From positions 186,001 through 250,000 of the IMG/VR virus record IMGVR_UViG_3300027759_000046: DNA of 64,000 bases; one strand, given 5' to 3'. The notes under the pieces are model-generated. The model was not told the origin of the DNA. It saw nothing but the letters and a program-made list of their open reading frames with translations, and searched no databases. Shown here in pieces: positions 4,199 to 63,506 of the stretch (position 1 is the first letter of the stretch; every line of letters begins with the position of its first letter). A program made the position numbers and the translations under genes. The stretch is from a virus.

Positions 4199-4840
4199 AT
4201 GTCAAAGATAAAACCTTTCCTTAAACACATCAATGAGTCAGAAGAGCGCGATGAGAAGTACTCAAGACTTAAAAAATTAGGCCTCACCCAAAACGACGAG
4301 CCCGAAGATACGGTGTATGCTCTAAAAGAGGCATTTCATAACGACCCACAGATCAAGAGCCTATTGACTCAACTTGACGCAAGAGTTGAAGAACTATTTG
4401 CACCAATCATAGACAGAGCCGAAGAGGCTTCTGGCGATTGGGAAGATATTCGAATGGACATGTCATGGACCTGGGCCGAGGATATTGCAAACAGTTACAT
4501 CTACAATCACATTTCAGAATTTGGAGAGTACCTCGAAGAATCCGAAGAACACCCAGAGCGTGAGCGTAATATTGAAAGATTAAGAGGACTTGGTCTTGCA
4601 CCCAAAAAAGATTTTGACGAGCGTTGGGAAGAGCTGATGGACGAATGGGGCGGGGATGCTGAGATTAGCCTGGCAATCGATACCTTAAAGGCCAAAACCA
4701 GTGCACTCATTGACAAGTACATTGACTTCGACGATGACGAAGATCAGCAGCAATGGGAACAACGTCAAGAGTGGATGTACGAACAGAGCGTTGACGATCT
4801 TGGCTGGTTGGAATACATGATCAGTAGCGGATCTCTATAA
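4199..4840 (+). CDS. putative capsid-targeted acidic protein with internal duplication
   Basis: 213 aa. The N-terminus MSKIKPFLKHINE followed by S fits the shared capsid-targeting-like peptide with an I-N-E cleavage-type site. Two related halves follow: E-S-E-E-R-D...L-K-K-L-G-L (about residues 14-75) and E-S-E-E-H-P...L-R-G-L-G-L (about 111-175), an intragenic duplication of a helical, acidic unit. No enzyme motif is seen. The TTG at 4190 gives a longer frame, but the ATG at 4199 places the peptide at the N-terminus as in its relatives. A late-type promoter box lies upstream. Confidence 0.65.
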   Translation: MSKIKPFLKHINESEERDEKYSRLKKLGLTQNDEPEDTVYALKEAFHNDPQIKSLLTQLDARVEELFAPIIDRAEEASGDWEDIRMDMSWTWAEDIANSYIYNHISEFGEYLEESEEHPERERNIERLRGLGLAPKKDFDERWEELMDEWGGDAEISLAIDTLKAKTSALIDKYIDFDDDEDQQQWEQRQEWMYEQSVDDLGWLEYMISSGSL

Positions 4841-4846
4841 TAAATA
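4839..4846 (+). promoter_or_regulatory. late-type AATAAATA promoter box
   Basis: AATAAATA 24 nt before the start at 4871. A second T4-like box TATAAATT follows at 4860-4867, only 3 nt from the start codon. Confidence 0.6.
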
Positions 4847-4870
4847 ATCAAACAAAAAGTATAAATTCAA

Positions 4871-5677
4871 ATGAAACACACAATCATTAAAGACTTCAAA
4901 GGTTGGAACGTGCTAATGGAAAATGCAGGATTCATCGGTGAAGAAACGGTTGGAACCGCAGGTTCAGCTGGAACAGCCGGCACAGCAGGTACAACCGGAA
5001 CAGCTGGTTCAGCTGGCACAGCAGGCGCTACCTCCGCTCCATTAACTGCAATCACGGCAGCAGACGGCGCGCTAACTGCTGAGGATATTAAAAAGGTACA
5101 GGCAATTGTCTACAATGCCCCACTAACTGACACTAAATCATGTGACGGTAAAGTTGGCCCAAACACAAAGGCAAAAATTAAAGAGTTTAGAACTGCAAAC
5201 GGCATCACTGACGAAACAGTTGAACCCAATCAGACTACGGTAGGTCCAAAAACCTTGGCTAAGATGATTGAAAAAATTACTGCAGGATTTACGCCAGGCG
5301 GAACCGCTGGAACAGCTGGAACAGCCGGTGCAACTGGTGTATTCGATCAACGTAATGCAACTGACGACCAGGCTGCAACCAAGATTTGCGACATGATTGT
5401 TGCTAAATTCAAGGACACTGCTTTCTGGCAACCATTTAAAGGAACGTTTAACGATGATGAAGGTCAAGCAGGTTTTGCATATAACAATTGGTACACGACC
5501 GAGGTTATGCCTCTAATTAAGACGCTTAGACAAGGCGATCCAAACATTGCTCGATTAGAAGCAGCCGATGCGGCAGTTCGTCAAAAATTAGCCGGCGGAA
5601 TGGCAAACGATTCAGCTTCTTGGCAAATCACAACGCTTAACGGCGAGATGAAATATCAAGTAGACACAGATTTCTAA
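4871..5677 (+). CDS. capsid-targeted-type protein with collagen-like repeats and peptidoglycan-binding domain
   Basis: 268 aa. The N-terminus MKHTIIKDFKGWNVLME fits the shared capsid-targeting-like peptide and shares its first eight residues with the next gene's product. Residues about 28-53 are Gly-Thr-Ala/Gly-Ser-Ala triplets (collagen-like Gly-X-Y). Residues about 75-135 form a peptidoglycan-binding fold (PF01471-like), with the D-G-K-V-G-P-N-T-K-A-K-I-K-E-F hallmark. A second short Gly-X-Y linker follows, then a C-terminal domain of unknown type. Likely a virion-associated cell-wall-binding protein. It heads a tandem pair with the next gene. Confidence 0.7.
   Translation: MKHTIIKDFKGWNVLMENAGFIGEETVGTAGSAGTAGTAGTTGTAGSAGTAGATSAPLTAITAADGALTAEDIKKVQAIVYNAPLTDTKSCDGKVGPNTKAKIKEFRTANGITDETVEPNQTTVGPKTLAKMIEKITAGFTPGGTAGTAGTAGATGVFDQRNATDDQAATKICDMIVAKFKDTAFWQPFKGTFNDDEGQAGFAYNNWYTTEVMPLIKTLRQGDPNIARLEAADAAVRQKLAGGMANDSASWQITTLNGEMKYQVDTDF
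4952..5029 (+). repeat. collagen-like Gly-X-Y codon repeats
   Basis: About 26 codons of Gly-Thr-Ala, Gly-Ser-Ala and Gly-Thr-Thr triplets inside the coding region. Near-identical 9-nt units make it a slippage-prone minisatellite. A shorter copy lies near 5297-5338 in the same gene, and related tracts occur in the genes at 33202 and 34763. Confidence 0.8.
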
Positions 5678-5692
5678 AATAAACCAAGCTTA

Positions 5693-7471
5693 ATGAAGCA
5701 TACAATTATAAAAGATTACAGGAGCTGGTTGTTTGAATCAACTCAGTACATGACAGAAGCGGCTGATCCAAACACGCCTATTGAGACTCTATTACAAAAT
5801 ACTGATCTTGAAGGTCTTTATCAAAGAATCATGTCAACCGATGCGGCCTCTAAGGGTTTACCTAATTACGCTAACGTAATGCAATGGTGGCATCAAGGCG
5901 GACCGGATTTGGGATTATGGAAGTCTCTATTTAAAGCGGGCGGCGAAGCCAAACGCGATAAGGTAAATTCAGCTCGTAGCATGTACTATTGGTTGGGAGG
6001 TTTTGCAACTAAGGGTCGTAGTGCTCAAAGTGCAGGCAAAGCAAACTATATCAAAAACGTTGAAGACTTCTGTACAGCAGTTAAGACCAATGCTCCAGCA
6101 ATAGTTGCCGCAGTTAACGCATTCCCAAAACCTGCTGAAAAAACACGTTACGCAGGTTGGAACGAAGCAGCTGCTAAAGCAGATGCAGTTTTGGCTTTCT
6201 TACAGACAGCTAAGGCAAAGAGTCTTAACTTAAGCTCACAGGCAGCAGCGATGCTAATTCCATACAGTGCAATTGACGGTCAACTATCAGTTAACAATGC
6301 ACCAACACCGCCAGCAACCTATTTCAAACTTACCGCAGACACATTCACAAAAGACAAGACTGATGATAATTTATCGGTAACGTCTTATGCTTATCAAACA
6401 GGTCAATGGACTCTACAAACAAGCGCGGTAACAACTCTTCAACAATTACAGACAAACATTGCAACGCTAACATCAGCAATGGCCGATCAAACTAAACTTT
6501 CTACATATTTTTCAGCAGATAATACATTAAGCGCTGAGAATAAGAAAGTTATCCTAGATTTTGTTAACACCAAGGTACAGGCTTATCTTGAAAGAAAGAA
6601 TAAGGCTCTTAAACCTGGAGAAACGGCAATGACTGTTGACTCTGCAATTAAAACTGCAACTGACCTTTACATTTCGCCAAATGGTACTAATTTGACTCTA
6701 TCGCCTGCAACCAAGCAGCCATCACCAGAGCCAATCACAGTTTCAGGCTCATATCCTGAAAATCCAAATGGCGATTGGAATTCAGCTGGTGCAAAGAAAG
6801 CTACTCAGTTCTTTGGTGACGATAAGATCCAGATTGAAGCAGGTCCTATTGCGGAAATGACAAACGGTATCAAATCGTATCTAGCTCAAATTAAAGCGAT
6901 GGGCGCTCAAATTACTGGCGTAAAAATCTGGGGTATTTCATCTACTAGTGCTGTACCAAGTTCATACGATCCTGCAACAAAGGGTCCAAATCCTGACGCA
7001 GGCTACACGACTGCAAAGAACGGCCCGCTTGCTCAAGACCGTTTGACCTCAATTAAAACTTCTCTACGTCAAATCTTTACTCAAAACGGCGTTACTGATA
7101 ATTTGATAACGGAAGATGCGACTCAAGATAAAGTTACTCCAAACATTGGAGCTGCTTGGACTGAACAAGATAAGGCTAAGTTTGCAAATCGCAAACAGCC
7201 AGGTAAAGAGGCTCTACTTAAAGAGTACGACGATAAATTTGGCAAATACAAATATGCATTTGCTCGTTTTGAGATTACGTACACAATGACTCAGCAATTT
7301 ACGGTTACACCACAGGCAGATCCTATTCCAAACTCAGACTGGAAAGTTTACATTAACTGGATTGATGAAACTTGGACACCACCGACAATTAGCATTCCAG
7401 GAATAGGTTTTAAACCTAAATCTGGAGGTTCTCAAAGAGATTGGGGAAAAACTGACTGTCCAGTATTCTAA
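5693..7471 (+). CDS. large putative capsid-targeted protein, unknown function
   Basis: 592 aa, starting MKHTIIKDYRSWLFE|STQ, the shared targeting-like peptide with an L-F-E cleavage-type site; a second site, M-T-E, follows six residues later. The middle is alanine/lysine-rich and helical. A region around residues 365-475 has a faint OmpA-like look (N-G-P-L-A-Q-D-R-L-T-S-I-K) but is not secure. The protein lies 15 nt after the preceding gene, with AAAATAAA upstream as a degenerate late-type box. Its stop overlaps the convergent CAP gene by 4 nt. Confidence 0.6.
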   Translation: MKHTIIKDYRSWLFESTQYMTEAADPNTPIETLLQNTDLEGLYQRIMSTDAASKGLPNYANVMQWWHQGGPDLGLWKSLFKAGGEAKRDKVNSARSMYYWLGGFATKGRSAQSAGKANYIKNVEDFCTAVKTNAPAIVAAVNAFPKPAEKTRYAGWNEAAAKADAVLAFLQTAKAKSLNLSSQAAAMLIPYSAIDGQLSVNNAPTPPATYFKLTADTFTKDKTDDNLSVTSYAYQTGQWTLQTSAVTTLQQLQTNIATLTSAMADQTKLSTYFSADNTLSAENKKVILDFVNTKVQAYLERKNKALKPGETAMTVDSAIKTATDLYISPNGTNLTLSPATKQPSPEPITVSGSYPENPNGDWNSAGAKKATQFFGDDKIQIEAGPIAEMTNGIKSYLAQIKAMGAQITGVKIWGISSTSAVPSSYDPATKGPNPDAGYTTAKNGPLAQDRLTSIKTSLRQIFTQNGVTDNLITEDATQDKVTPNIGAAWTEQDKAKFANRKQPGKEALLKEYDDKFGKYKYAFARFEITYTMTQQFTVTPQADPIPNSDWKVYINWIDETWTPPTISIPGIGFKPKSGGSQRDWGKTDCPVF

Positions 7472-8025: not shown

Positions 8026-8031
8026 GTAATT

Positions 8032-8058: not shown

Positions 8059-8718
8059 ATGAAACCTTTTAAACTATTGCTAGTACTACTGATTTCGTTT
8101 GTACTATTTACATCATTTTCAACTGAGTTTACAGTTAAAGACAAGATTGTGATCTTGGCTCATGCTGGCTATGTTTCACATTATAGCACAGGTTTAAAAT
8201 ACCCAGTTGAGGTGGAGTGGTGGGATACTAAAGCTCGACTGGGCTGCACGACTAAATTTCCTAGAAAAGACCAATTTGCACCAGATCCATTACTACCAGC
8301 TGAGACGAGCCTTGCTGATGATTATTCTGGATCAGGTTTTGATCGAGGTCACATGTGCCCAGCGGCAGATAACCAATGCGATTCTGAATTCTTAACAGAG
8401 TGCTTCTATTTTTCAAATATGGCACCTCAATATCATTCGCTGAACGCTGGGGTCTGGAAAACTCTTGAAACTCGCACCAGAGAATTTGCTGAGCAATTGG
8501 ACTCAGTTAAGGTTTGGTGCGGCAATATTGGATCGGTCTCCAAAATCGGAGAGGTTTCAGTACCAGCAAAGTGTTGGAAAGTAATTTACATAAAGAAGAC
8601 CAAAGTTTGGGAAGCTTACGTTTTTGAAAATACAAAAGAACAGTCTAAAAAGCTTGATCAATTAAAGGTCAAGGTATCAGACGTTGAAAAATTAACCGGC
8701 TTTAAATTTAAACCATGA
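8059..8718 (+). CDS. secreted DNA/RNA non-specific endonuclease (NUC1 family)
   Basis: 219 aa. An N-terminal signal sequence (K followed by L-L-L-V-L-L-I-S-F-V-L-F, to about residue 21) precedes a beta-beta-alpha-metal nuclease domain. The active-site motif D-R-G-H-M-C-P-A is at residues 95-102 (H98 the general base), and the metal-binding asparagine lies in N-M-A-P-Q-Y-H-S-L-N at about 120-129. The family cleaves DNA and RNA without sequence preference; export would put it in the periplasm or outside. Plausible roles are nucleotide scavenging or destruction of competing DNA. The stop overlaps the next start (ATGA), so the two are coupled. Confidence 0.85.
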   Translation: MKPFKLLLVLLISFVLFTSFSTEFTVKDKIVILAHAGYVSHYSTGLKYPVEVEWWDTKARLGCTTKFPRKDQFAPDPLLPAETSLADDYSGSGFDRGHMCPAADNQCDSEFLTECFYFSNMAPQYHSLNAGVWKTLETRTREFAEQLDSVKVWCGNIGSVSKIGEVSVPAKCWKVIYIKKTKVWEAYVFENTKEQSKKLDQLKVKVSDVEKLTGFKFKP

Positions 8719-9122
8719 AACACATAAAACAATTTACTCAATTTGTCAACGAAAACGTTGACTGGAAGCAGCTAACTGAATTAGAGGCGTACGCAGATGG
8801 CCTCTTTAATGAGCTTGGTCTTGATGTGGTATTTACAAAACACTTTAAGGACAGAGTCAACGACGTTCGAAACGGCAACCCGATTACCTATAATGAATTG
8901 AAAGCCTTATTCCTAAAGGCTTACTTGAGAGCTGGCGAACAGATCTCAGAATTACCAGTTGAAACAGAAGCAGTTCTTAAAGATTTAAGTTCAAATCTTA
9001 ATGCTCCATTCAAAATACAGGACGCACCAGATGATGCTGACCACACTGAAAACGATATGGTAATGAAGACTATTATGAAGAAAGAAAGATTCATGTCGAG
9101 TAACCCGTCTATTGAAGTTTAG
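8715..9122 (+). CDS. putative capsid-targeted small protein (135 aa)
   Basis: The N-terminus MKHIKQFTQFVNE|N is a textbook match to the shared targeting-like peptide. The remainder contains F-T-K-H-F-K-D-R-V-N-D-V-R-N-G and a K-D-L-S-S-N-L-N-x-P-F segment, a pattern I associate with small phage proteins of unknown function. It is translated from the nuclease transcript through a 4-nt overlap and is closed by a strong hairpin terminator. Confidence 0.65.
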   Translation: MKHIKQFTQFVNENVDWKQLTELEAYADGLFNELGLDVVFTKHFKDRVNDVRNGNPITYNELKALFLKAYLRAGEQISELPVETEAVLKDLSSNLNAPFKIQDAPDDADHTENDMVMKTIMKKERFMSSNPSIEV

Positions 9123-9190: not shown

Positions 9191-9793
9191 TTACATTTCG
9201 TTCTCTTTATTAGCGCCTTTCTTCTGGAAACCAAATGGTTTAGCAGCAGGCTTTGCAGCCGGTTTACCGAATGGCATTCCTTTTGCAGCAGGTTTTTCGT
9301 CTTTCTTAGCGAATGGGTTTCCCTTTGCCGCAGGTTTACCGAATGGCATTCCTTTCGCAACAGGTTTAGCTTTAGCTCCTCGTTTTGGGGCCTCTTCCAT
9401 TTCTTCCTCTTCAGCAGCTTTGCCTTTTTTCTTTGCAGCAGGCTTTAGATTAGCGAATTTTTTATCAACTTCTTTAAGAGCTTCAATTTGAGCTTTTTTC
9501 TTTGCCTCATATAACTCTTCATCAGTCATGCGATTCATGTTATGTCTTGAAATTCTGTGTGCATCGTAATCATCTGAATGCATTGCTTGGTCTAACTCAC
9601 GTTGTGAACTAGTAGACTCTTCGCCACATGCTGTGCAATATCCTTCTTCATCAATTTCAGAACCACAACATTGTGAAGTTTCTTCCATTGTATCGCTATC
9701 GCCGAATCTATCTTCTTGAGAAAAGGAATCTCCGTGATTGGATTCATAATTTTCATTAATGAATTGGGTAAATCTTTTTACTTGATTTTTCAT
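9191..9793 (-). CDS. putative capsid-targeted zinc-ribbon protein with Lys/Pro/Ala repeats
   Basis: 200 aa from the ATG at 9793 (a longer frame to 9847 would hide the N-terminal peptide). It starts MKNQVKRFTQFINE|N, a clear match to the shared targeting-like peptide. Residues about 42-56 carry a zinc-ribbon pattern (C-C-G-S...G-Y-C-T-A-C-G). The C-terminal third is a low-complexity basic repeat of P-A-A-K-G-M-P-F-G-K units. A basic tail with a packaging signal suggests a DNA-condensing or injected DNA-binding protein, comparable in concept to T4 internal proteins. Confidence 0.65.
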   Translation of the reverse strand: MKNQVKRFTQFINENYESNHGDSFSQEDRFGDSDTMEETSQCCGSEIDEEGYCTACGEESTSSQRELDQAMHSDDYDAHRISRHNMNRMTDEELYEAKKKAQIEALKEVDKKFANLKPAAKKKGKAAEEEEMEEAPKRGAKAKPVAKGMPFGKPAAKGNPFAKKDEKPAAKGMPFGKPAAKPAAKPFGFQKKGANKENEM

Positions 9794-9812: not shown

Positions 9813-10253
9813 TTATGGTTCGATATCTTCTTCCTCTTCAGTATCATCTGAAAGGCCTAACATTTCGTCATTGAATTTATTGAAAGCTGATTCAGCTTCT
9901 TTCATGGTCTTATTTAAAGTAATAAGCTCATCTTTTAGAGTCTGAACTTTCTCTTTGTCTTCGTCAGTTGCTGGATTTTTACGAGCATCTTCTGGCATTT
10001 CCAAGAACTCTTTTTGTTTATCTTTAAATGCTTTAACTGCATCTTTACGAGCTTGGTCAAGTTTCTTGAATTTACCAATCTCAGTTGAATCATCAATATC
10101 TTCAACCGAAGTAGGCTCAGCATCAGTCGGTGCAGCTGGTTCAGCAGGAGCGTCCATTTCAGCTGGTGTTAAGTCAGCAGGAGGATCAATTGCAGGTCCA
10201 GTAGCATCAACCTTTTCAGATTCTTCAAGCCATTGATTGTACCTATAAATCAT
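9813..10253 (-). CDS. putative capsid-targeted acidic coiled-coil protein
   Basis: 146 aa beginning MIYRYNQWLEE|S, a shorter variant of the shared N-terminal peptide. A Pro/Ala/Asp/Glu-rich linker follows (about residues 20-50), then a strongly charged helical region predicted as coiled coil (about 55-135) and an acidic tail. No catalytic motif. It lies upstream of the zinc-ribbon gene on the same strand and probably shares its transcript. Confidence 0.55.
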   Translation of the reverse strand: MIYRYNQWLEESEKVDATGPAIDPPADLTPAEMDAPAEPAAPTDAEPTSVEDIDDSTEIGKFKKLDQARKDAVKAFKDKQKEFLEMPEDARKNPATDEDKEKVQTLKDELITLNKTMKEAESAFNKFNDEMLGLSDDTEEEEDIEP

Positions 10254-10275
10254 TGTTTAGTTAGCTATTTTAGTT

Positions 10276-10283
10276 TATTTATC
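10276..10283 (-). promoter_or_regulatory. late-type GATAAATA promoter box
   Basis: GATAAATA on the minus strand 22 nt before the start at 10253. A plus-strand copy for the divergent gene lies at 10295-10302. Confidence 0.6.
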
Positions 10284-10294
10284 TACGACTCTCG

Positions 10295-10302
10295 AATAAA
10301 TA
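10295..10302 (+). promoter_or_regulatory. late-type AATAAATA promoter box
   Basis: AATAAATA 8 nt before the ATG at 10311. Together with 10276-10283 it makes a divergent pair of late-type boxes. Confidence 0.6.
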
Positions 10303-10310
10303 ACTCTACA

Positions 10311-11087
10311 ATGAAATTACTAACATTCAATACATGGTTATCTGAGACGGCCAGGCCACTAGTAAAGCTTAGTGATCTTGATATTAACCGTCGATATAAA
10401 GATGAGAGGTATGAGTATGAACTATTTCCAAGATTTAGACGACTTAAAGCCAGAATCAACGAACTAGATAAAATGCCAACTCTTGAGCACTGGTTCGCAA
10501 TGATGCAGAACTCAGACGCCGAATTCTATACGCTAGTTCAAACAGGCGAACTTGGTCAACCTGATGTCAGAGAACTATTTAGAGACCTAACGGGTCGTCG
10601 TGCAGCAAAGATGGCAAAGTATAATCTAGAAGAGAACAAAGGAGAAATCGCTGCATGGCAATGTAGCATAGACCCTTCTTGGAAAATGATTGCGCTATGG
10701 CCGACTGATCCGGGCTATGAGGACGCTGCGAAGATTTTTGACTATTTAGGAATTGCGTTTGGCGACCTTTCTTCTAAAACTATTTACGTAGACGGTGTTC
10801 AGCTTGAACAGGAAAATTTAACAAAGGATCACCTACTTGCAATTGAAGCTCATGAAATTAGTCATGGCATATTAAGTCATCAATCGTCAAATCGAGAATT
10901 AGCGGAATACGATGAGAGACAGGAAAGAGAAGCCGATTGGATGGGAGTCAGAATCCTTGATGCAATGGATTATCAAATGGCGGCTCAAATCCTAGAAGAT
11001 CGATATGAAACTCACTATGGCGAAAGTTCAGAAGATCTTGATAACACCGAAAAATTAGAATCTCAATTGCGAGATTATTTAAAATAA
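10311..11087 (+). CDS. putative capsid-targeted zinc metallopeptidase
   Basis: 258 aa from the ATG at 10311. An upstream in-frame start at 10233 would run through the promoter region. The N-terminus MKLLTFNTWLSE|T fits the shared targeting-like peptide. The zinc-protease motif H-E-I-S-H is at residues 181-185, with a downstream E-R-E-A-D-W-M-G (about 205-212) supplying the third ligand, the gluzincin-like arrangement of M48/M78/IrrE-type peptidases. This would be a protease delivered with the DNA or acting in the capsid. It is first of a plus-strand run with the next two genes. Confidence 0.7.
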   Translation: MKLLTFNTWLSETARPLVKLSDLDINRRYKDERYEYELFPRFRRLKARINELDKMPTLEHWFAMMQNSDAEFYTLVQTGELGQPDVRELFRDLTGRRAAKMAKYNLEENKGEIAAWQCSIDPSWKMIALWPTDPGYEDAAKIFDYLGIAFGDLSSKTIYVDGVQLEQENLTKDHLLAIEAHEISHGILSHQSSNRELAEYDERQEREADWMGVRILDAMDYQMAAQILEDRYETHYGESSEDLDNTEKLESQLRDYLK

Positions 11088-11401: not shown

Positions 11402-12001
11402 ATGAAAACTTTTTCTCAATTCATTAATGAGAATTCACAGGATTCACAGCACTATGAATTAATGGCCTCTCTTGCAAATGCAATGAACACTGCCGGTCGA
11501 TATGCAAACGCGTCAGTAAATCAAGCAGACAATTCAATTCGACTCTCATCAAACTGGGAGCTTGACACTATGAAAATTAGCGATCTTGGAAGAGTTGAAC
11601 CGACTGCCTATTATGTTGCAAATCTTGTTCCAAAATTTAATAAGGAGGCCTCTACTAATCTGAGCAGACTAATTCAATTAGGGCTAGGAAATGTAAGCGA
11701 TTTGCTTGAAGGATTTACTATAACTACCGCCCTTAGTGTAGACGTTTACGAAGTTGAAGGTTATGAATTCAAAGACGGCCCAGACACTAATGAGTATACT
11801 CTAGAAGAGTTAGACATTCAGGGGTTCTTTGATACTGGTGATATTAGTGGAGCGGGCGAAGCTCTTGTTGAATGGTGGGATGAAACTGCTAATGAATATG
11901 GCTATATGCTTTATACACGAGTAGCAGAAGACCTTGAATCGTATATTGCAAGCCGCCAACCTGATGAAGAAGACGATGAGTTGGAAGATGAAGGGTGGTG
12001 A
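11402..12001 (+). CDS. putative capsid-targeted protein, unknown function
   Basis: 199 aa starting MKTFSQFINE|NSQD, the closest match in the window to the T4 internal-protein leader MKTYQEFIAE. The mature part is acidic, especially the last 20 residues, and shows no recognised motif. It is the last gene of the plus-strand run 10311-12001. Confidence 0.65.
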   Translation: MKTFSQFINENSQDSQHYELMASLANAMNTAGRYANASVNQADNSIRLSSNWELDTMKISDLGRVEPTAYYVANLVPKFNKEASTNLSRLIQLGLGNVSDLLEGFTITTALSVDVYEVEGYEFKDGPDTNEYTLEELDIQGFFDTGDISGAGEALVEWWDETANEYGYMLYTRVAEDLESYIASRQPDEEDDELEDEGW

Positions 12002-14039: not shown

Positions 14040-16025
14040 ATGATTAATTCATTTATTCAAATGGTTAACGAATCAGCCGATTTAGAACTAGGCCAAGAAG
14101 GTCTTGTTGATGAGATGGGAGTTAAACGCCCAGAAAGTTTAACAGGCAGTGAAATGGGAACAATTCGTCAATCTTCAATTCAACACAGGCAAAATCAGAC
14201 AAACGTTCCACGTAAAAAGAACTATCACGAATTGGTCGTGGAGCTAGTTGACGATTTAAAGCGTATGCCTAGAACAGAGATCACAATGGAGAAACCAGCA
14301 AATTCTCGATACTATTATCCAAAGTTACCGGCTGCTATTGTGCAAAAAATGCGCGAAGCCTATGCACTAAACTCTAGATCATTTGTCCAAGATATTGGAA
14401 ATTGGAGAGACATTAGTCCAAACGATTCAGACGCAATCTATTTTAAGATTGAAGCACCTAGTGATCATCAACGAAGCCATTTTCCAAACGGCGGAATTCC
14501 GCCAATGCTTAGAGGAACTGGACTAGGTTACAAATTATATAGAGCCCTACTTAAAACAGCCGGATATCTTTCTTCAAACCGTTCTGGATCAAATGAAAAA
14601 GATAAAGCTTGGGGTTCTCTACTTGCTCAAAAAACAAATCCTGACGGAACTTTGTCAGTAGATGACGCTCACGCAATTATTGGTAAGTCCAATTGGATGG
14701 CACTAGACAAGGGAATGTCTGACCGTGGGAAAATAGATGCAGCTGTCAGTTTCATAACTAACACAGTCGGAGTTCAACGAACTCAGCCCGATAAATTTGA
14801 TATGGATGATGAGCTATTGTCAATTCTACCGGACGATTTTCTGGTTAAATTGGACCCAGCTTATTTGCAATCACTAGTTGATGATGGTCGTATTACTCAG
14901 GAAAAATACAGACAAATTGAAGATTCAAGAAGTGAAGCTGACCGTCGTGAAAGAGAACGTCAAGCTCAAGCTGAAATTGAAGCACGCGAACGTCGTGCTA
15001 GAGAAGAGGCTGAGACTCGTCGTCGTTTAGCTAGTCGAATCCAACAGTTTGGTGCAGACCCAGACGCTGAATGGAGTGTTGGCGATTATATCGTAGTTAA
15101 GTCTTACCTATTTGACGCTTCATATAACGGTTTACCTATTCGTCGAGTGGTTTCACAAAACGGCGGTACTTATATAGCTGTTAAAATCTCAGATGCAATT
15201 AGAATTGATAATGGCGATATTACTCCAAATCAAGCAAACGATAATCGATCAACATCTGACAAATCACAATGGGTTAAAGTAAACCTTGATCAAATCCCAG
15301 ATCTAACGCGAGTTAATTTAACTGACGCTGAGCGTACGTACCTTGAGGGTCAAATGGATCCCGAAACTGCGGCTAGAGCAAGAGCAGAACGTGAGGAAGC
15401 TGAACGCGAAAGACGCGAAGCTGAACGTAGAGAAAACGAGGAACGTGCTAGAAATAGAGAAACATTCGGTTCTTTACCCGATAATGCTGGTGAATTAAAG
15501 ACTTCTCAAACTGCGAGAAATAATGGCTCAATCAGAGAAGCTGATCTATTAAAGAAATTTAGAGATTCATATTTCACAGATAGAATGGAGATCATTGTAA
15601 TGGGACCGCAACAGAGAGAAGCTCTAAGAAATTCATTTGGTGTTCCAGTATTCATTGCATGGACCGGTTCATCAAGACGTCCAATACCAGCGTCTCTTGA
15701 TACAATAAATAATGATCCACAATCTGTTAAATTAACGAATGCTGTAACCGGCTTTACAATTGATGCACCGTTTACTGGTCTTGGCCTAATGGCATATCCA
15801 TTAACTGAAGTAACAGTTGACGATAAAATGAGAGCTAGAGCAGGAACTCACTATTATATCTCTGGCCATAAGAATGCCTTTGGTATTCTCGCAAAGAGTG
15901 ATTATGGTGCAGTTAATACATCTGCTCAGAAATTTATCTACGTTAAAGCATACGGATACGGAGAACGTAGCGTATCAGTTAGATTAGATTTATTAAGAAA
16001 GATTGGAACTCCTACTGAGCTGTAA
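14040..16025 (+). CDS. large putative capsid-targeted protein with GNAT-like motif and charged coiled coils
   Basis: 661 aa starting MINSFIQMVNE|S, the shared N-terminal peptide. Residues about 155-175 contain R-G-T-G-L-G-Y-K-L-Y-R-A-L-L, which resembles the acetyl-CoA-binding loop of GNAT acetyltransferases (R-G-x-G-x-G/A); this is suggestive, not proven. Two Arg/Glu-rich segments (about 295-330 and 440-475) are predicted long charged helices, each followed by a globular beta-rich domain. Probably an injected or internal virion protein. Its stop overlaps the convergent nuclease gene by 14 nt. Confidence 0.55.
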   Translation: MINSFIQMVNESADLELGQEGLVDEMGVKRPESLTGSEMGTIRQSSIQHRQNQTNVPRKKNYHELVVELVDDLKRMPRTEITMEKPANSRYYYPKLPAAIVQKMREAYALNSRSFVQDIGNWRDISPNDSDAIYFKIEAPSDHQRSHFPNGGIPPMLRGTGLGYKLYRALLKTAGYLSSNRSGSNEKDKAWGSLLAQKTNPDGTLSVDDAHAIIGKSNWMALDKGMSDRGKIDAAVSFITNTVGVQRTQPDKFDMDDELLSILPDDFLVKLDPAYLQSLVDDGRITQEKYRQIEDSRSEADRRERERQAQAEIEARERRAREEAETRRRLASRIQQFGADPDAEWSVGDYIVVKSYLFDASYNGLPIRRVVSQNGGTYIAVKISDAIRIDNGDITPNQANDNRSTSDKSQWVKVNLDQIPDLTRVNLTDAERTYLEGQMDPETAARARAEREEAERERREAERRENEERARNRETFGSLPDNAGELKTSQTARNNGSIREADLLKKFRDSYFTDRMEIIVMGPQQREALRNSFGVPVFIAWTGSSRRPIPASLDTINNDPQSVKLTNAVTGFTIDAPFTGLGLMAYPLTEVTVDDKMRARAGTHYYISGHKNAFGILAKSDYGAVNTSAQKFIYVKAYGYGERSVSVRLDLLRKIGTPTEL

Positions 16026-16818: not shown

Positions 16819-17193
16819 ATGCTTAAGAAATTTGATGAATTTAATGAAACCTTGAATGAGGGTTTTTGGGACTGGTTGACAGGCAAGTCTGAAAAGGGAG
16901 AAAAGAAGGACAAAGTGACCAGTGCTAAAGAGGGTCCAATTGATGCAAAGGTAGCAGAATATTATAAAACGCTACAGGATTTTGCTGATGCTGGCAAATC
17001 TATTGAAGTTCAGTCACTTGGCAATATGTCTTATTCTAAAATGGTTGAAGATATTCAACTTGCGTTGGAATTCCTAGGTTATAAACTTGAAAAATACGGA
17101 GTTGATGGATACTTTGGCCCAGAGACTTCTGCTGCCATTGTTAAATTCAATCAAGATACCTTAAATAAAATACCAGATTCTCAACATGATTAA
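16819..17193 (+). CDS. putative capsid-targeted peptidoglycan-binding protein
   Basis: 124 aa. It starts MLKKFDEFNETLNE|G (shared peptide, L-N-E site), followed by a short basic linker and a peptidoglycan-binding domain (about residues 55-120) with D-G-Y-F-G-P-E-T-S-A-A-I-V-K-F-N, the PF01471-type hallmark. It overlaps the lysin gene by 8 nt, so the two are probably made together as wall-binding and wall-cleaving components. Confidence 0.7.
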   Translation: MLKKFDEFNETLNEGFWDWLTGKSEKGEKKDKVTSAKEGPIDAKVAEYYKTLQDFADAGKSIEVQSLGNMSYSKMVEDIQLALEFLGYKLEKYGVDGYFGPETSAAIVKFNQDTLNKIPDSQHD

Positions 17194-18436
17194 AGGATTC
17201 GATCAATTTACTGGAAAGATTAATGAAGCTTCAAACGGTCAGCTAAATGATGCTGACCTAGTTCCAATTCAGCCACTCGGTAAGAGCGGCGGAAACCATA
17301 AATTAAATTCACAAGCAGCAAAAGCATACGAAGAAATGAAGAAGGCTGCTGAGGCAGACGGTGTAACTTGGGGTATTACTGACTCGTATCGAGATTATGA
17401 AGCCCAAGTTGATGTTGCTGCACGTAAAGGTCTTTACAAAAATGGAGGATTGGCGGCAGTTCCTGGAACATCAAATCACGGATGGGGTAGTGCTCTAGAT
17501 CTTGACCTAAATTCTGAAGCTCAAGAATGGTTAAAGAAGAACGCTGAAAAATTTGGATTCACAAATATTCCAAGAGAACCTTGGCATTGGGAACATAAAG
17601 CCAGTGTTGAGCTAGCAAAGACTGGAAAAGAAGGCACTGGATCTTCAGCTAAAGTCGGATCAGTGCTAATTGATTCAGATCTAATTAAGAGACTGATTGC
17701 AAAATTAAAAGAGAAGAATTTCAGCCAAAAGGATCTAGACCAGTACATTGCTAAGTCTTCGTCAGGTAAAGGCGCAAACTTTAAAAGCGGTGAAAAGTTT
17801 CCTGCTGAAAATATGAAAGCCATTGAAAAAGCAATGGATGATCATGGTATAACAAATGAATATGCTAGAAAGGCAATTCTTGGAGTTATTTCAAAAGAAT
17901 CTCCAGGTTTAAAATCTGAAATAAGTTATTCTGGAACAAGTGCTGCTCGAATTAGAGAAGTTTTCCCAAGTAAATTTGGTGATAAATCTGATTCTGAGAT
18001 TGACGACATTAAGAAAGACGATGCTATGTTTTGGGATGTAGTGTATGGCGGTAAATACGGAAACACTGAACCTGGAGACGGTTCAAAGTACCGAGGCCGT
18101 GGTTTTAATGGAATAACATTCAAATCAAATTACGAAAACTTACAGAGAATTTACGACAGGTCTGGCGCTAAGGTTGGCAATATTGATATTGTTAAGAATC
18201 CTGAACTTCTTGAAAAACCTGAAGTTGCAGCCGAATTCGCTGTTCTATATTTCATGGATACTTTTAAACGTCACGGTAAGGATGTGAATTCCTACACTGA
18301 TTTAGAGTCAGCCGTTACTGATTACGTTCAAGCAAATGCAGGCTGGGGAACTTCTTTAGCTGGTGCAGTCACATCAAAGGGTTTACAAAAGGCAATGGAC
18401 TTTGCGAAATCATTAGATACAGACCAAATTGCTTAA
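17186..18436 (+). CDS. bifunctional lysin: M15 peptidase plus GH19-like glycosidase, with targeting-like leader
   Basis: 416 aa. The leader MIKGFDQFTGKINE|A is followed by a VanY/M15-type L,D-/D,D-peptidase domain (about 30-140): S-N-H-G-W-G-S-A-L-D-L-D (H98, D105) and E-P-W-H-W-E-H (H134). The C-terminal half (about 205-410) is a chitinase-19/lysozyme-like domain with candidate catalytic E238 (S-K-E-S-P-G) and the family signature Y-R-G-R-G-F-N-G-I (302-310). It would cut both peptide and glycan in peptidoglycan. The leader suggests a virion-packaged lysin for entry rather than, or besides, a lysis enzyme. Confidence 0.85.
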   Translation: MIKGFDQFTGKINEASNGQLNDADLVPIQPLGKSGGNHKLNSQAAKAYEEMKKAAEADGVTWGITDSYRDYEAQVDVAARKGLYKNGGLAAVPGTSNHGWGSALDLDLNSEAQEWLKKNAEKFGFTNIPREPWHWEHKASVELAKTGKEGTGSSAKVGSVLIDSDLIKRLIAKLKEKNFSQKDLDQYIAKSSSGKGANFKSGEKFPAENMKAIEKAMDDHGITNEYARKAILGVISKESPGLKSEISYSGTSAARIREVFPSKFGDKSDSEIDDIKKDDAMFWDVVYGGKYGNTEPGDGSKYRGRGFNGITFKSNYENLQRIYDRSGAKVGNIDIVKNPELLEKPEVAAEFAVLYFMDTFKRHGKDVNSYTDLESAVTDYVQANAGWGTSLAGAVTSKGLQKAMDFAKSLDTDQIA

Positions 18437-18438: not shown

Positions 18439-19356
18439 ATGAAACACCTACTTGAATATAAAATATTTGAATCAGCTGAGAGGATTATTGATGCAACGGC
18501 TGGCGCTGGAACAGATGAGGAATCTCTGGTGCAAGCGATTGCTGGCATTCAAACGCCTGAAGACCTATCTAAAATTGATGCAGAACTTGCTTCAAACCTA
18601 AATTCTGAATATAAAAGCGTAAAAGATGCAATAGCTGGAGAGCTTGGAGTTTTTGATACAGTTTACAAGGACGCAATTGCTCAAAAGTTTAGTCAGTTAG
18701 GTTTGCCTAACTACTTAGAAGACGGAATAATTCCAGTTAAATCAGATAAAGTAGAAAAGACTCAAATTGAAAAACCTATCAAATCTGCCATGGCTGAAAC
18801 ACAAACTCTTTCTCAAGGAAAAATCAATATTAATTCAAATAAATCTGCTCCGTTAATTGTTGTATTCGGTGGAATTGATGTGGGTGGACGATCGAGTGGT
18901 TCTTATATGTATGACTATTTTAAAGAGGCTACTTTATCGAAAGCGACAACATTTATTGCAAATTCTTCAAAAATAGACGGCTCTAAAGCCTGGTCTGAAA
19001 TATCTGGTTTAAACTTAACTCCATCTAAAAAGATTCTCTACCTATTCTCTGGTGGATATTTACCTGGGATGAGCTTGCTAAATAAGGTAGCTGCATCCGA
19101 GTGGGCTGCAATTTATCTAGTTGATATTTGGATAGGTCAAAACTCAAATACTGAGAATTTCTATACAAAACTCACAGCGGACTTTCCTGACAAAGTAAAA
19201 TACTACTATACTGGCGGAGAGAATTCAGCAGGTGGATCCAATAACCTAAAGGCAAAGAAGGAAATGATTGACTCTGTTAGCTATTCAAAGGGTGCAGGCT
19301 CTCACATGGGAGCAAATGATATTGCGGTAAACGACCTTAATGGAGATATCTCCTAG
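18439..19356 (+). CDS. putative capsid-targeted protein with annexin-like segment
   Basis: 305 aa. The leader is MKHLLEYKIFE|S. Residues about 15-75 (D-A-T-A-G-A-G-T-D-E-E-S-L-V-Q-A-I...V-K-D-A-I-A-G-E-L-G) resemble one annexin repeat including the G-x-G-T-D-E calcium loop. The C-terminal 170 residues look like an alpha/beta fold with G-G-I-D-V-G-G-R-S-S-G and S-G-G-Y-L-P-G-M-S, which could be a hydrolase-type site. Neither assignment is firm. It follows the lysin gene by 2 nt. Confidence 0.5.
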   Translation: MKHLLEYKIFESAERIIDATAGAGTDEESLVQAIAGIQTPEDLSKIDAELASNLNSEYKSVKDAIAGELGVFDTVYKDAIAQKFSQLGLPNYLEDGIIPVKSDKVEKTQIEKPIKSAMAETQTLSQGKININSNKSAPLIVVFGGIDVGGRSSGSYMYDYFKEATLSKATTFIANSSKIDGSKAWSEISGLNLTPSKKILYLFSGGYLPGMSLLNKVAASEWAAIYLVDIWIGQNSNTENFYTKLTADFPDKVKYYYTGGENSAGGSNNLKAKKEMIDSVSYSKGAGSHMGANDIAVNDLNGDIS

Positions 19357-19979
19357 TCTTCTTTAGTTGATTTAGTATTTCCGAACTTAGATAAGAATAT
19401 GTCGGCAGTCTTCTCAAGAACACTATTGAATGCTGTGTCAGATTCACGAATTGATTTAAAATAGTCAACGAAACCTACCATATCTGCAATTTTATAAGTA
19501 TTAATCTTGACCATATCAGATGAATTTCCGTCAATTGAGACAAATGAATCTCCTGTTACTTTTAAGACAATACCAGTATGACCTTTTCCAGATGAAGCGC
19601 CGCCTCGTGACTTAATAAAGACTTGACCCGGCTGAACCTTTGAGGGATCGCGTGAGTCTATCTTATTTTCAGCAGGTGCAGAATTCCAATGAGACATAAC
19701 TGCTGCAGTTTTAGGTAGAGGATTTTCAATACTAAGTTTTGAACAAAGCTCATCGAACATTGCATAAACGAATGCCATGCACCATGGATTACCTGCGCCT
19801 AGTCCAAGCTTACCGAGCATACCCTTAACCATTGACCCGTCATTATTTCCTTCTTCTTTTTTCCCAACGTAATCTGCTAACACATGACCAAATGTTTCGG
19901 CTGCATTCGTTGCAGTATCAGGTTTAATCGCTAGTTCAGCTTCAGTTATGAATTGATTAAAATCTTTAATAAGTTTCAT
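19353..19979 (-). CDS. putative capsid-targeted CHAP-like amidase/peptidase
   Basis: 208 aa with leader MKLIKDFNQFITE|A. The body fits a CHAP/NlpC-type cysteine amidohydrolase: the nucleophile in N-P-W-C-M-A-F-V (about residue 68), catalytic histidine in G-K-G-H-T-G-I-V-L (about 140) and a following S-I-D-G-N-S polar segment. Predicted to cleave peptidoglycan cross-bridges. With the lysin and PG-binding genes it makes a wall-attacking set marked with the same leader. Its stop overlaps the convergent 18439 gene by 4 nt. Confidence 0.7.
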   Translation of the reverse strand: MKLIKDFNQFITEAELAIKPDTATNAAETFGHVLADYVGKKEEGNNDGSMVKGMLGKLGLGAGNPWCMAFVYAMFDELCSKLSIENPLPKTAAVMSHWNSAPAENKIDSRDPSKVQPGQVFIKSRGGASSGKGHTGIVLKVTGDSFVSIDGNSSDMVKINTYKIADMVGFVDYFKSIRESDTAFNSVLEKTADIFLSKFGNTKSTKED

Positions 19980-22934: not shown

Positions 22935-23526
22935 TGTGTTTTTGTATTGTTTGTTTAATCCAGTCAAAATTAACTGGAGTATAATCGGTCAAGCATGCGC
23001 ATACTGAATAGGCATTCTTGATTGGATGCAAAACTTGGTGTGAGTGACCATATAGGTGATATGATCCGTGAAATTTTCCATTGAATTCCAAGATTGGATA
23101 GTGGAACAGCACAACTCGACGAAAACCGATTTTCTGTTCTGGGTCCGGAAAGAAGATCTCTTCGTAATCTTTAAAGTCAACGATTTTTGCAACTGAACTA
23201 AGTTCCCTGAACCAGTGCTCATCGATATGAGTATCGTGATTGCCTTTTAACCAAACTATATTACCCTTTAACTGGCTAAAAATCCATTTTAGATAACTTA
23301 ATTTAATTCGGTGCATTGAGGCATCTCCTAGGAAGAAAACAGTATCATCCTCCTGTACAACAGAATTCCAACGAGCAATGATCTCATTATCGTGCTCCTC
23401 AATTGATTGGAAATTATGCAAACCTTCTTCAAATCGCAATACGTTATTGTGATCAAAGTGGGGATCGCTTATGAACCAGGTTTTTGCTGGATCGAATATT
23501 TTGTTCTGTGGTATTTGTCCGCTCAT
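22885..23526 (-). CDS. calcineurin-like metallophosphoesterase
   Basis: 213 aa. The two-metal signature is complete: S-D-P-H-F-D-H-N-N (D21, H23), F-F-L-G-D-A-S (about 64-70), K-G-N-H-D (94-98), a later L-F-H-Y-P histidine and C-terminal Y-G-H-S-H. Similar phage enzymes act on nucleotides or nucleic-acid ends; the substrate here is unknown. The start overlaps the upstream gene's stop (ATGA). Confidence 0.85.
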   Translation of the reverse strand: MSGQIPQNKIFDPAKTWFISDPHFDHNNVLRFEEGLHNFQSIEEHDNEIIARWNSVVQEDDTVFFLGDASMHRIKLSYLKWIFSQLKGNIVWLKGNHDTHIDEHWFRELSSVAKIVDFKDYEEIFFPDPEQKIGFRRVVLFHYPILEFNGKFHGSYHLYGHSHQVLHPIKNAYSVCACLTDYTPVNFDWIKQTIQKHNEGLNRLGESGVQPTN

Positions 23527-26985: not shown

Positions 26986-27465
26986 ATGAAAAGACACGTT
27001 CAAATTTTCGAAAATTTTGAAAGAGCGTTTGATAACGTTTACGGAGCAAATCCCTTAATAGAAAAAGCCAAAGTTGATCAAGACGGCGACGGCGATACTG
27101 ATTACGTTGACGCAAAGGTTGCTCAATATCAAAAGGGCGGTATTAAAAAAGGCCAAGCAATTGCAAAGGCAAAAATGTTTGCAAAAAAGAATAATATTAA
27201 AGACTCTATCAAAGACTCGAATAAGACAGTAAAAGAGGGCTTTTTTAATAGATGGACAAAACCTTCTATTGATCAAGCTGCTCATGATTCAGTAAGGGGT
27301 CAAGGCCACAGCCACCGAGGAAACGACGATGGAGAGTACATTATGTTTGACGGTCAAAAATTTAGCCAAGATCAAATTGAGTATGCTGACTATCATGATA
27401 TGGGCAGAATTCCTAGGGTTGAAGATGGCATATTAATTATTGCTGATCCAAATTGGAGTAATTAA
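26986..27465 (+). CDS. putative capsid-targeted protein with EF-hand-like loop
   Basis: 159 aa with leader MKRHVQIFE|N. Residues 31-42 (D-Q-D-G-D-G-D-T-D-Y-V-D) make a calcium-binding DxDxDG loop followed by a lysine-rich helix. The rest shows no known domain and is rich in His/Gly/Asp near the end. TATAAATC at 26975-26982 is a T4-like box 3 nt before the ATG. Confidence 0.6.
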   Translation: MKRHVQIFENFERAFDNVYGANPLIEKAKVDQDGDGDTDYVDAKVAQYQKGGIKKGQAIAKAKMFAKKNNIKDSIKDSNKTVKEGFFNRWTKPSIDQAAHDSVRGQGHSHRGNDDGEYIMFDGQKFSQDQIEYADYHDMGRIPRVEDGILIIADPNWSN

Positions 27466-61438: not shown

Positions 61439-61460
61439 CGGTAACGGACTTCTTTTTGAT

Positions 61461-61468: not shown

Positions 61469-61517
61469 AGCCCAATCTTTTCTTTGCAAAACCATGACCT
61501 TGGATAAATACTTTTAG

Positions 61518-61523
61518 TATAAT
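61518..61523 (+). promoter_or_regulatory. TATAAT box of the tmRNA gene
   Basis: GTATAATA 15 nt before the mature 5' end at 61539, so the precursor would carry a short leader removed by RNase P. Confidence 0.55.
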
Positions 61524-61538
61524 ACTTTTATACTACAT

Positions 61539-61907: not shown

Positions 61908-61913
61908 TGTCTT

Positions 61914-61946
61914 AAAGGCTTCCATTACGGAAGCCTTTTCTTTTTA
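61914..61946 (+). terminator. rho-independent terminator of the tmRNA
   Basis: Ten-bp arms AAAGGCTTCC (61914-61923) and GGAAGCCTTT (61929-61938) with a TTTTCTTTTT tail. Confidence 0.88.
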
Positions 61947-61958
61947 GACAGCCTGATT

Positions 61959-61966
61959 GATAAATA
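61959..61966 (+). promoter_or_regulatory. late-type GATAAATA box, leaderless spacing
   Basis: GATAAATA with only 5 nt to the ATG at 61972, directly behind the tmRNA terminator. Confidence 0.6.
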
Positions 61967-61971
61967 AGAGT

Positions 61972-62724
61972 ATGAAGGCACTTAACACCGACGATATTTT
62001 TTTAAGGAATTTAACAATAGCTCTACTTGATCTCCTGAATGGATCAATGACACTTTCTCTGTCTAGAGACGATCATAAAGAGACATTCTCTGTTCCATTT
62101 CTCTATAATTTTGGAACTGATGAGGGTTTCTTAAAGGATTTTTATATTGGACTCCCAGACAACTGTCAAATCCCAGTAGCCGAAGGCACTTACGATATTA
62201 TTCCAAGAGGAATTGTTACCCTAGGATCATTTCAGGTAAAATCATCAGATATTACAAATCGATTCATTCGTGGACAGTACTCCGAATTGGAACGCGGACC
62301 AAACGATCAAAACGTTTTAACTGGATATTCTGCTCAACTCTATTCTCTACCAATGTCAGTTAAGTTTGACGTAAAGATTATTTGCGATAACTTAAATAAA
62401 GCATTCAAGATTGCTGAGAGAATGTTAGACATTAATTACGCAAATCGTGTAATGTATTTTCAATACAATGGAGTTCGTATTCCGGCTCAATTCCAGTTTC
62501 CAACAAATGAAACGGTTGACAAGGTTTACAAATTTACAATGAATGAAAATAACAAGATCAATGTGAGTCTTTCAATTGATGTTGAGACCTATTTCCCAAG
62601 CTTTGAGCAGAGTTCTAAGAGGCTTAGCACAAATGTTATGGAAAGAGTTAATATCAATAAAAAGGACGATACTGGAAATAATATGACAAGCAGTTGGGTT
62701 GATCAAAATACACCTATCATTTAA
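61972..62724 (+). CDS. tail/baseplate structural protein (250 aa)
   Basis: Start at the ATG at 61972, after the late-type box; an upstream in-frame start at 61957 overlaps the promoter. The protein has an N-terminal globular part and a beta-rich middle (Q-L-Y-S-L-P-M-S-V-K-F-D-V-K-I-I-C-D), and no enzyme motif. Style and promoter match a contractile-tail component. The stop overlaps the next start (TAATG). Confidence 0.55.
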   Translation: MKALNTDDIFLRNLTIALLDLLNGSMTLSLSRDDHKETFSVPFLYNFGTDEGFLKDFYIGLPDNCQIPVAEGTYDIIPRGIVTLGSFQVKSSDITNRFIRGQYSELERGPNDQNVLTGYSAQLYSLPMSVKFDVKIICDNLNKAFKIAERMLDINYANRVMYFQYNGVRIPAQFQFPTNETVDKVYKFTMNENNKINVSLSIDVETYFPSFEQSSKRLSTNVMERVNINKKDDTGNNMTSSWVDQNTPII

Positions 62725-63506
62725 TGAAGTACTTATTAGAATTTAAAACATTTACAATTACTGAAGGCGGTAACGCTTTTCCTGATGCACAAAGCCTTGA
62801 TCGTGGCGCGGTTGAACCGGCTTTTGCTAAATTCCAAGATGCAATGTCAAATGTATTTGGCAAAGCTGAACTTGAATTAATTGGTTCATGGAAACAAAAA
62901 GAAGTATCTGGTGATCTAGATACTCTATTCTATTCTGACTTAACTCTTCCTGAGATCTCAGCAAAAGTTCAAGAAGCAGGATACGAAACCAAGATATTTT
63001 ATGGATTTAATATTGTGTCCGTTAAATTTGAAATTTCACCAGAGCATTTTGTTCAATTTGATATGTTCGTTAGGCCGATGGACACCAACCGTGATGTAAA
63101 CGATTTGTTCTATAAATCAACTGATGAAGAACGGTATTCAACAAAGCATCGTGTCTTTTTGATCTTTTGTGCGCTAGATTCTATGAAGTTTGATAAGATT
63201 GAAAAAGACGGTGTGTTAACTCATTTTAAAGGTTATATGCTTCGACCTGACGGTCTCTATCAATTCACGAAAGAGATGAAGAAGATTAATTATAAGATTA
63301 TGGATCGCCAAAAGTTAACCGACGACCTTGATCAAATTTCGTTGATCTTATTTGGTAAAGTCTATCCGTATCAACAATGGAATACTTACGAAAAGACTCT
63401 CACCTTGCTTGAGAAGAATCCTAAATTAGACATGAAGACTATTCTTGACGAATATCGTGCTAAATTGGATGAAGAAGGTCTTGTGGTTCCAGGTGGAATC
63501 AGTTAA
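62724..63506 (+). CDS. second putative capsid-targeted nucleotidyltransferase-like protein
   Basis: 260 aa with leader MKYLLEFKTFTITE|G. The nucleotidyltransferase-type pattern is L-I-G-S-W-K-Q-K-E-V-S-G-D-L-D-T-L-F (about 53-70; G-S and D-x-D-like carboxylates) and a later F-V-Q-F-D-M-F-V (third acidic residue, about 112-119). A C-terminal helical domain follows. Together with the 23523 protein this gives two leader-bearing NTase-like proteins. Translationally coupled to the tail gene upstream. Confidence 0.6.
   Translation: MKYLLEFKTFTITEGGNAFPDAQSLDRGAVEPAFAKFQDAMSNVFGKAELELIGSWKQKEVSGDLDTLFYSDLTLPEISAKVQEAGYETKIFYGFNIVSVKFEISPEHFVQFDMFVRPMDTNRDVNDLFYKSTDEERYSTKHRVFLIFCALDSMKFDKIEKDGVLTHFKGYMLRPDGLYQFTKEMKKINYKIMDRQKLTDDLDQISLILFGKVYPYQQWNTYEKTLTLLEKNPKLDMKTILDEYRAKLDEEGLVVPGGIS

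Follow-up and report, generated by a model that had tools for sequence, protein, structure and literature searches.

Why do so many unrelated proteins of one virus begin with a similar short peptide? The question is raised by a stretch of 64,000 nucleotides (nt), called the window here, which spans positions 186001-250000 of the 253,137-base IMG/VR virus record IMGVR_UViG_3300027759_000046. The record belongs to a jumbo, T4-related phage. Proteins injected with phage DNA belong to the earliest weapons against host defences, and in uncultured phages they are unrecognisable. The first-pass annotation of the window had read the peptide as a T4-like capsid-targeting leader that is cut by a prohead protease. 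This is the reading best backed by the sequence, given an S77 protease, a gp23-like capsid protein with an (L/I)NE site and conserved leader positions that match the IPIII residues identified by mutation. We consider it probable, at roughly 80%, that the peptide serves as a capsid-targeting sequence like that of the T4 internal proteins, carried by about 30 unrelated cargo proteins. The earlier idea is supported, but its scope was too modest. Our gene-by-gene reading covers about 180 kb of the 253-kb genome with 230 genes. Compared genomes and sequence stretches are labelled G and L, respectively (L003:12429-14411 on the minus strand, for instance, equals G000:64429-66411).

The strict pattern M[KR]x0-7[FYW]x1-2[FYW][ILV]xE was counted against 2000 residue shuffles of each N-terminus. 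It occurs in 7 of the 37 genes at 4199-36000 of the window, where 0.02 were expected and the 2000 shuffles never gave more than one. It is absent from the remaining window genes (0/36) and from internal Met sites (0/861). A slightly looser pattern was found in 20 of the 230 genes over 180 kb (1.2 expected). The Lys/Phe-rich N-termini of an AT-rich phage might produce such matches by chance or composition, and the genome is indeed AT-rich with 39% guanine plus cytosine. However, the shuffles predict 0.02-1.2 cases against 7-20 observed, and phages PTm1, Lak-B5 and G013 are not enriched. The probability of a chance origin is negligible; it is ruled out by the shuffles, the internal-Met control and the orthologue conservation described below. 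The aromatic pair is present in 26 of the 29 listed leaders, which are 10-26 residues long. The leader of the 14040 protein is without it, and (F/L)xx(M/L)VNE is kept there in all 4 orthologues. The tag had been described as basic, but its mean net charge is only about +1. A simple DNA pattern for F(I/V/L..)NE was noisy over the whole genome, with 26 matches versus 17 for the reversed pattern.

A gp21-like protease, whose absence would have refuted the first-pass reading, is present in the genome as an S77 prohead protease-scaffold fusion of 660 amino acids (aa), encoded at L003:12429-14411 (minus strand) immediately upstream of the gene for a gp23-like major capsid protein. Its N-terminal part matches PF03420 with 33-35 bits (cut-off 27) and the solved T4 gp21 structure 5jbl (E 1.9e-5). 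GELDHP and SSR correspond to GELNHP and SSR of T4 gp21, and the His and Ser are invariant in 21 relatives. The major capsid protein (PF07068, E 9e-43) carries (L/I)NE followed by A or S and a variable-length linker, which is kept in more than 15 distinct closer relatives; the capsid protein of a sister group mostly shows (I/L/V)FE then Q at that site. In T4, FGSFLTE of gp23 ends at residue 65, the known maturation cut point, and IPII and IPIII carry YQEFIAE. In T4 IPIII, residues 4 and 7 are the main determinants of targeting, and residues 8 and 10 those of processing (PMC9026906). These correspond to the two aromatics and to the I/L/V plus Glu of the motif described here.

The annotated relatives nearest by capsid protein are huge metagenomic phages, Prevotella Lak phages and Tenacibaculum phages (28-39% identity), and distinct IMG/VR relatives reach up to 76%. 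The same kind of head module is described for bS21 phages infecting Bacteroidetes (PMC9723584). From the capsid relatives and this head module, a Bacteroidota host appears likely.

G001 has an orthologue for most of the window cases. Conservation was assessed on 16 motif-bearing orthologue pairs with G001, with pairs and alignment picked by eye. The aromatic positions are still aromatic in 32/32 cases and the Glu is kept in 16/16, while the residues between the aromatics are identical in just 22/32. The 11402 protein is 59% identical to its G001 orthologue over the alignment, yet the first 13 residues are identical. An orthologue of 24587(-) shows the same start context without ATG. In the family of the 17186 lysin the junctions read KINE/ASNG, KLNE/AANG, FINE/AANG, VLIE/AQNG and KLVE/AANG in different phages (slash, predicted cut). 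The E/A.NG junction is thus constant while the leaders differ in length and sequence. In L096 the 16819-type and 17186 proteins are fused, and a leader-like segment survives inside, at LVGE/AQNG. This fusion (stop-to-stop frame from 9605, plus strand) joins peptidoglycan (PG)-binding and M15 parts and resembles a packaged polyprotein. In some relatives of the head-cluster protein L003:9730-10233 the protein begins with a leader followed by NENSLKDLVGK, at the place where L003:9730-10233 itself has an internal FESYMYEANSLKDLVGK.

A T4-like packaging tag could also stay uncleaved on many cargoes, or the proteins could act inside the virion, in DNA condensation or head stability, without being injected. 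The 36084 protein, with its conserved aromatic start and no cut site, would suit this explanation. So would a head-cluster tagged protein that is a short basic repeat protein, and processing of ejection proteins in giant phages is inconsistent (PMC5694885). However, the Glu is kept in all 16 pairs, and it is hard to see why enzymes would be static parts of the head. We therefore regard this explanation as unlikely.

Comparison of relatives, which had been proposed as a check, revealed leader DNA common to unrelated bodies in two genomes. In G001 the leaders of the 4871 orthologue and of an adjacent unrelated gene match at 39/51 nt, but the next 51 nt only at 11/51. In LR756500 (462 kb), 13 genes show a mean nucleotide identity of 72% over the 39-nt leader versus 34% just downstream; about 4 of these 13 encode related leucine-rich-repeat proteins and the rest are mostly unrelated. 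High identity in the leader next to low identity downstream indicates that the tag spreads from gene to gene as DNA. Runs of neighbouring genes in LR756500 start with MKYI(K/L)EYEEF(L/I)(L/Y)E. The runs lie at L143:11601-15898 and L144:12960-17720 and include several leucine-rich-repeat proteins with nearly identical MKYI(K/L)EYEEFLLE leaders. Among the bodies in the genome studied here, the annexin-like pair gave the single significant pairwise match. phiM12 and a Flavobacterium phage encode larger proteins in which the 8715 body is one domain and lacks this leader, and the Melnitz copy of the body has a leader-like start, MKTFLQFEQ, with no (I/L/V)xE. A tagged protein of 562 aa (L008:3652-5340, minus strand) has a homologue in the 634-kb phage LR745206 that also starts with a leader, MKNFKDFMNE.

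The same patterns reveal an excess of tags in G000, G001, G002, G006, LR745206 and LR756500, and no excess was seen in PTm1, Lak-B5 (100 kb) and G013; most of these genomes were judged from sampled stretches. In addition, a blind scan with a leader DNA pattern was run over 2.9 million IMG/VR viral contigs, and the following counts are among the matches listed. Of 152 matches, 134 are in frame and 125 are close to an open reading frame (ORF) start, whereas a codon-reversed control gave 50/120 in frame and 22 near starts. The matches include 123 ORFs of at least 60 aa in 93 body clusters. More than one match was found at 22 loci, versus 0 in the control. Long contigs found via the leader alone encode the protease-scaffold fusion in 15/22 cases, compared to 1/10 for controls of similar size (Fisher p 0.006). 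Most bodies have no Pfam match. ATP-grasp is among the recurring known ones, as at window position 36084, and ATP-grasp bodies with full leaders occur in unrelated contigs. The match in L155, a tape-measure-like protein, was set aside as a probable false positive.

The scaffold half of the fusion provides a possible link between leader and prohead. There the leader core, [FYW]xx[FYW][ILVM]xE, recurs at multiples of 14 residues, as YGDYLAE, YSDYLGE, YGEYVAE, YAEYVAE, FANYLAE, YSEYLGE and YSEYIAE; the repeat can be written YxxY(L/V/I)(A/G)E. All proteins of the examined stretches together contain 43 such cores (8.7 expected), of which 8 lie in the fusion and 3 in further proteins of the head cluster; leaders account for about half of the remainder. 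Fifty relatives of at least 500 aa were found, and the 45 listed among them have 6-11 copies each, mostly 14 residues apart, counted with His admitted as second aromatic (about 0.1 expected). The 15 fusions reached through the leader alone have 3-9 copies. Tenacibaculum phage PTm1, whose fusion is without repeats and whose genome is without leaders, fits as a single case. Lak-B5, in which no scaffold protein was identified, is left out of this comparison. Two leader-core copies were also seen in L006:13209-16160 (minus strand, 983 aa), between RNA ligase and cytidylyltransferase-like parts.

In the mechanism proposed here, the leader would be a single unit of the scaffold repeat, aromatic-x-x-aromatic-(I/L/V)-x-Glu. 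A tagged protein would dock in the prohead core by packing its unit, via the aromatic pair, among the scaffold repeats. Being part of the same polypeptide as the scaffold, the S77 protease would then cleave all three, scaffold, cargo and capsid protein, behind the Glu of (I/L/V)-x-Glu, and the cargo freed in the head would leave with the DNA into the next host. We infer all four steps, docking, cleavage, packaging and injection. Docking by mimicry of the scaffold repeat is put forward tentatively, at slightly less than even odds. The capsid-protein site carries no aromatic pair, as expected if the pair serves docking and the Glu cutting. In a wider form, which is about as tentative, the mechanism would amount to a general loading code. 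In phages with a protease-scaffold fusion, any protein gaining one N-terminal unit of the 14-residue repeat, with its YxxY(L/V/I)xE end, would be co-assembled, cut free and injected. Each phage would use a dialect, FxxFINE here, MKYILEYEEFLLE in LR756500 and MKHIKLFEQFLNE in many others, copied between genes.

Targeting and processing could also be T4-like with another core protein recognising the leader. The likeness of leader and repeat would then come only from a protease specificity common to both and from a general amphipathic helix, and only the docking step would differ from the mechanism above. The capsid site, with (L/I)NE and no aromatic pair, indicates that cutting by the protease can do without the pair. 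The T4 scaffold gp22 has no such repeats, yet T4 internal proteins, which carry the motif, are packaged. However, an aromatic pair at exact i, i+3 spacing before (I/L/V)xE is found in the leaders and, with a 14-residue period, in the scaffold, which is more than cleavage alone needs, and PTm1 lacks repeats and leaders together. We consider recognition by another core protein possible, though on balance doubtful.

Several observations weigh against the capsid-targeting reading and its scaffold-repeat extension. T4 gp22 is without repeats although T4 internal proteins carry the motif, so mimicry of scaffold repeats cannot be needed in every phage. LR756500 has many tags but only 3 exact scaffold copies, and in the predicted structure of the fusion the repeat region is a long helix of low confidence (predicted local distance difference test, pLDDT, 51). 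I, L or V stands at P3 in 27 of the 29 leaders, but the cut sites were listed by eye, so that P3 and P1 frequencies are partly circular. The S77 protease alone is only marginally more frequent in leader-found contigs than in controls (17/22 versus 4/10 among the matches listed, Fisher p 0.06). A literature search found no virion proteome for this lineage. Finally, the cargo includes several peptidoglycan hydrolases, and these could instead work from the tail or during lysis.

Since peptidoglycan-active bodies are typical of tails or lysis, the leader might also target the host membrane, a phage nucleus or the tail baseplate, with convergence explaining its likeness to T4. However, the block of genes at 43-62 kb of the window carries no leaders, tag and S77 protease-scaffold fusion occur together, and a tagged protein is encoded within the capsid gene cluster (L003:10245-10604). 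Another destination is thus very improbable, and capsid targeting remains the preferred reading.

Within the window, the first-pass annotation had named 21 starts, all of which are ORFs at the given positions and strands. Of its 18 strong cases 17 hold, and 34740(-) is weaker, keeping only NYA(I/L)LNE without the aromatic pair. Three further cases had been called weak. The protein at 41643(-) was rejected as tagged, as its orthologue shows no conserved site; 36084 has a conserved aromatic start but no cut site, and 39268(-) has FDDF plus a distant conserved LIGE. A Nudix gene at 37867-38346 (minus strand), with a canonical leader in its relative, had been overlooked. The genes are as follows.

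4199-4840, plus strand: tagged protein, 213 aa; leader MSKIKPFLKHINE then S; FxxHINE fits the FYW-x-x-FYWH form present in the scaffold.
4871-5677, plus strand: tagged protein, 268 aa, weak PG-binding match; leader MKHTIIKDFKGWNVLME.
5693-7471, plus strand: tagged protein, 592 aa, no family match; leader MKHTIIKDYRSWLFE then S.
8715-9122, plus strand: tagged protein, 135 aa, phrog_23027 C-terminal domain; leader MKHIKQFTQFVNE then N.
9191-9793, minus strand: tagged protein, 200 aa; leader MKNQVKRFTQFINE then N.
9813-10253, minus strand: tagged protein, 146 aa; leader MIYRYNQWLEE then S, kept in 3 relatives.
10311-11087, plus strand: tagged HExxH zinc-peptidase-like protein, 258 aa; leader MKLLTFNTWLSE then T, kept in 3 relatives.
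11402-12001, plus strand: tagged protein, 199 aa; leader MKTFSQFINE then N.
14040-16025, plus strand: tagged protein, 661 aa, possible GNAT-like motif by eye; leader MINSFIQMVNE then S.
16819-17193, plus strand: tagged PG-binding protein, 124 aa; leader MLKKFDEFNETLNE then G.
17186-18436, plus strand: tagged bifunctional lysin (VanY/M15 and endolysin-like C-terminus), 416 aa; leader MIKGFDQFTGKINE then A, junction kept in 6 relatives.
18439-19356, plus strand: tagged annexin-like (GTDEE) protein, 305 aa; leader MKHLLEYKIFE then S.
19353-19979, minus strand: tagged CHAP protein, 208 aa; leader MKLIKDFNQFITE then A.
23523-24587, minus strand: tagged nucleotidyltransferase-like protein (GGSG...DVD, by eye), 354 aa, TTG start; leader LKNIKSFTDFLQINE then M.
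26986-27465, plus strand: tagged protein with EF-hand-like DQDGDGDTD, 159 aa; leader MKRHVQIFENF..PLIE then K; a relative has TLNE then K at the same place.
33202-34740, minus strand: weak case, 512 aa; MRHINIGNYAILNE then S, a conserved leader without the aromatic pair.
34763-35971, minus strand: tagged protein, 402 aa; leader MKSFKSFDDFINE then S.
36084-37208, plus strand: possible uncleaved case, YheC/D-like ATP-grasp protein, 374 aa; conserved start MKYLFEFAQY without a following (I/L/V)xE.
37867-38346, minus strand: additional candidate, Nudix protein; start MIDTFDNF; relative L115:3515-3985 (minus strand) has leader MKIKAFSEFLAE then S.
38537-39268, minus strand: weak case, 243 aa; start MIKKFDDF, with a conserved LIGE then N further downstream.
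62724-63506, plus strand: tagged nucleotidyltransferase-like protein (GSWKQ..SGDLD, by eye), 260 aa; leader MKYLLEFKTFTITE then G.
Outside the window, tagged genes: L003:10604(-), at 10245-10604 inside the capsid gene cluster; L005:2434(-), 2918(-); L006:6954/8157/9377/16744(-).
Outside the window, further tagged genes: L007:4715(-); L008:5340/7893/8663/19319(-); L009:18635(+), 19183(+).

The search for further members thus extended the set beyond the window, to about 32 tagged genes within the roughly 180 kb examined, conserved looser cases counted in. That the bodies are unrelated was borne out, but they had been read as a large enzyme set and are more often unknown proteins than recognisable enzymes. 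Peptidoglycan-active bodies are the PG-binding protein (16819), the VanY/M15 lysin (17186) and the CHAP protein (19979), and at L005:1610-2434 (minus strand) a tagged lysozyme is joined to annexin-like repeats. The annexin-like GTDEE repeats are common to this protein and the tagged protein at 18439-19356 (plus strand). HExxH peptidase-like bodies are found at 10311 and, by eye, at L009:19183-19887. An NTP_transf_2 nucleotidyltransferase is encoded at L008:7896-8663, and the bodies at 24587 and 62724 are nucleotidyltransferase-like by eye. The tag is incomplete on the Nudix body (37867), and the ATP-grasp body (36084) has no cut site. The predicted structure of the 14040 protein is of low confidence (pLDDT 57). 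Low-complexity GTAGTAGSAG linkers occur in 4871-5677 (plus strand), 33202-34740 (minus strand) and 34763-35971 (minus strand). By analogy with T4 Ip1-3 (PMC12373910) and phiKZ, the cargo likely serves counter-defence, host take-over and entry.

T4 IPI, IPII, IPIII and Alt carry a capsid-targeting sequence (Mullaney and Black, 1996; reviewed in PMC9026906 and PMC3012670; function in PMC12373910). Like these proteins, the set described here has a short N-terminal leader (10-19 residues), with aromatics at the two targeting positions and an (I/L)xE cut site, as well as unrelated bodies behind one leader and a gp21-family protease. Unlike T4, which has about 4 tagged genes (at least 10 internal proteins are reported across T-even relatives), this phage has about 32. 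It also differs in its FxxFINE dialect, in the leader core repeated in the scaffold and in the protease fused to the scaffold, and its cargo includes peptidoglycan hydrolases, nucleotidyltransferases, zinc-peptidase-like and Nudix proteins. Large head cargo sets and a prohead protease cutting after x-x-E are likewise known for the inner-body or ejection proteins of phiKZ and SPN3US (PMC5694885, PMC9026906). However, SPN3US propeptides are mostly >100 residues, phiKZ is cut at S/A-x-E, and there is no short shared tag; the 29 listed leaders do not follow this type, being 10-26 residues long and having I, L or V at P3 in 27. P1 Dar proteins also have an N-terminal signal, which suffices to load a reporter into the head, and their cargo protects DNA after injection (PMC9024508). 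In contrast to the leaders here, Dar N-termini share no consensus according to that report. Bacteroidota bS21 phages and moraphages are aquatic jumbo phages with the same kind of head module, including, in bS21 phages, a 'prohead core scaffolding protein and protease' near the capsid gene (PMC9723584); a tag is not mentioned in the accessible parts of these two reports (PMC9723584, PMC12619734). No report of the leader-scaffold system was found in a literature search that was thin on subscription journals and preprints. The system described here is a variant of the known T4 internal-protein system, larger in scale and found across a clade, and its structural link to the scaffold is new.

If the tag marks injected proteins, a sequence search alone yields hundreds of candidate effectors, most of them without a known family, and predicts their exact neo-N-termini. 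If the loading code is true, the tag alone would identify the injected proteins of uncultured phages. The match of tag and scaffold repeat offers a testable answer to how cargo is selected into the prohead core, where work on T4 stopped at two critical residues.

The region 5' of the tagged genes was also inspected for promoters. A T4-like late promoter, TATAAATA, was found upstream of 0/31 tagged genes. A AATAAATAA-like box, a pattern picked post hoc, is more frequent there, with TAAATA upstream of 20/31 tagged genes versus 36/171 other genes. It lies upstream of 4199, 4871, 10253(-), 10311, 14040, 19979(-) and 24587(-), and also upstream of the head genes L003:8777(-) and 10604(-). The box is a candidate late promoter.

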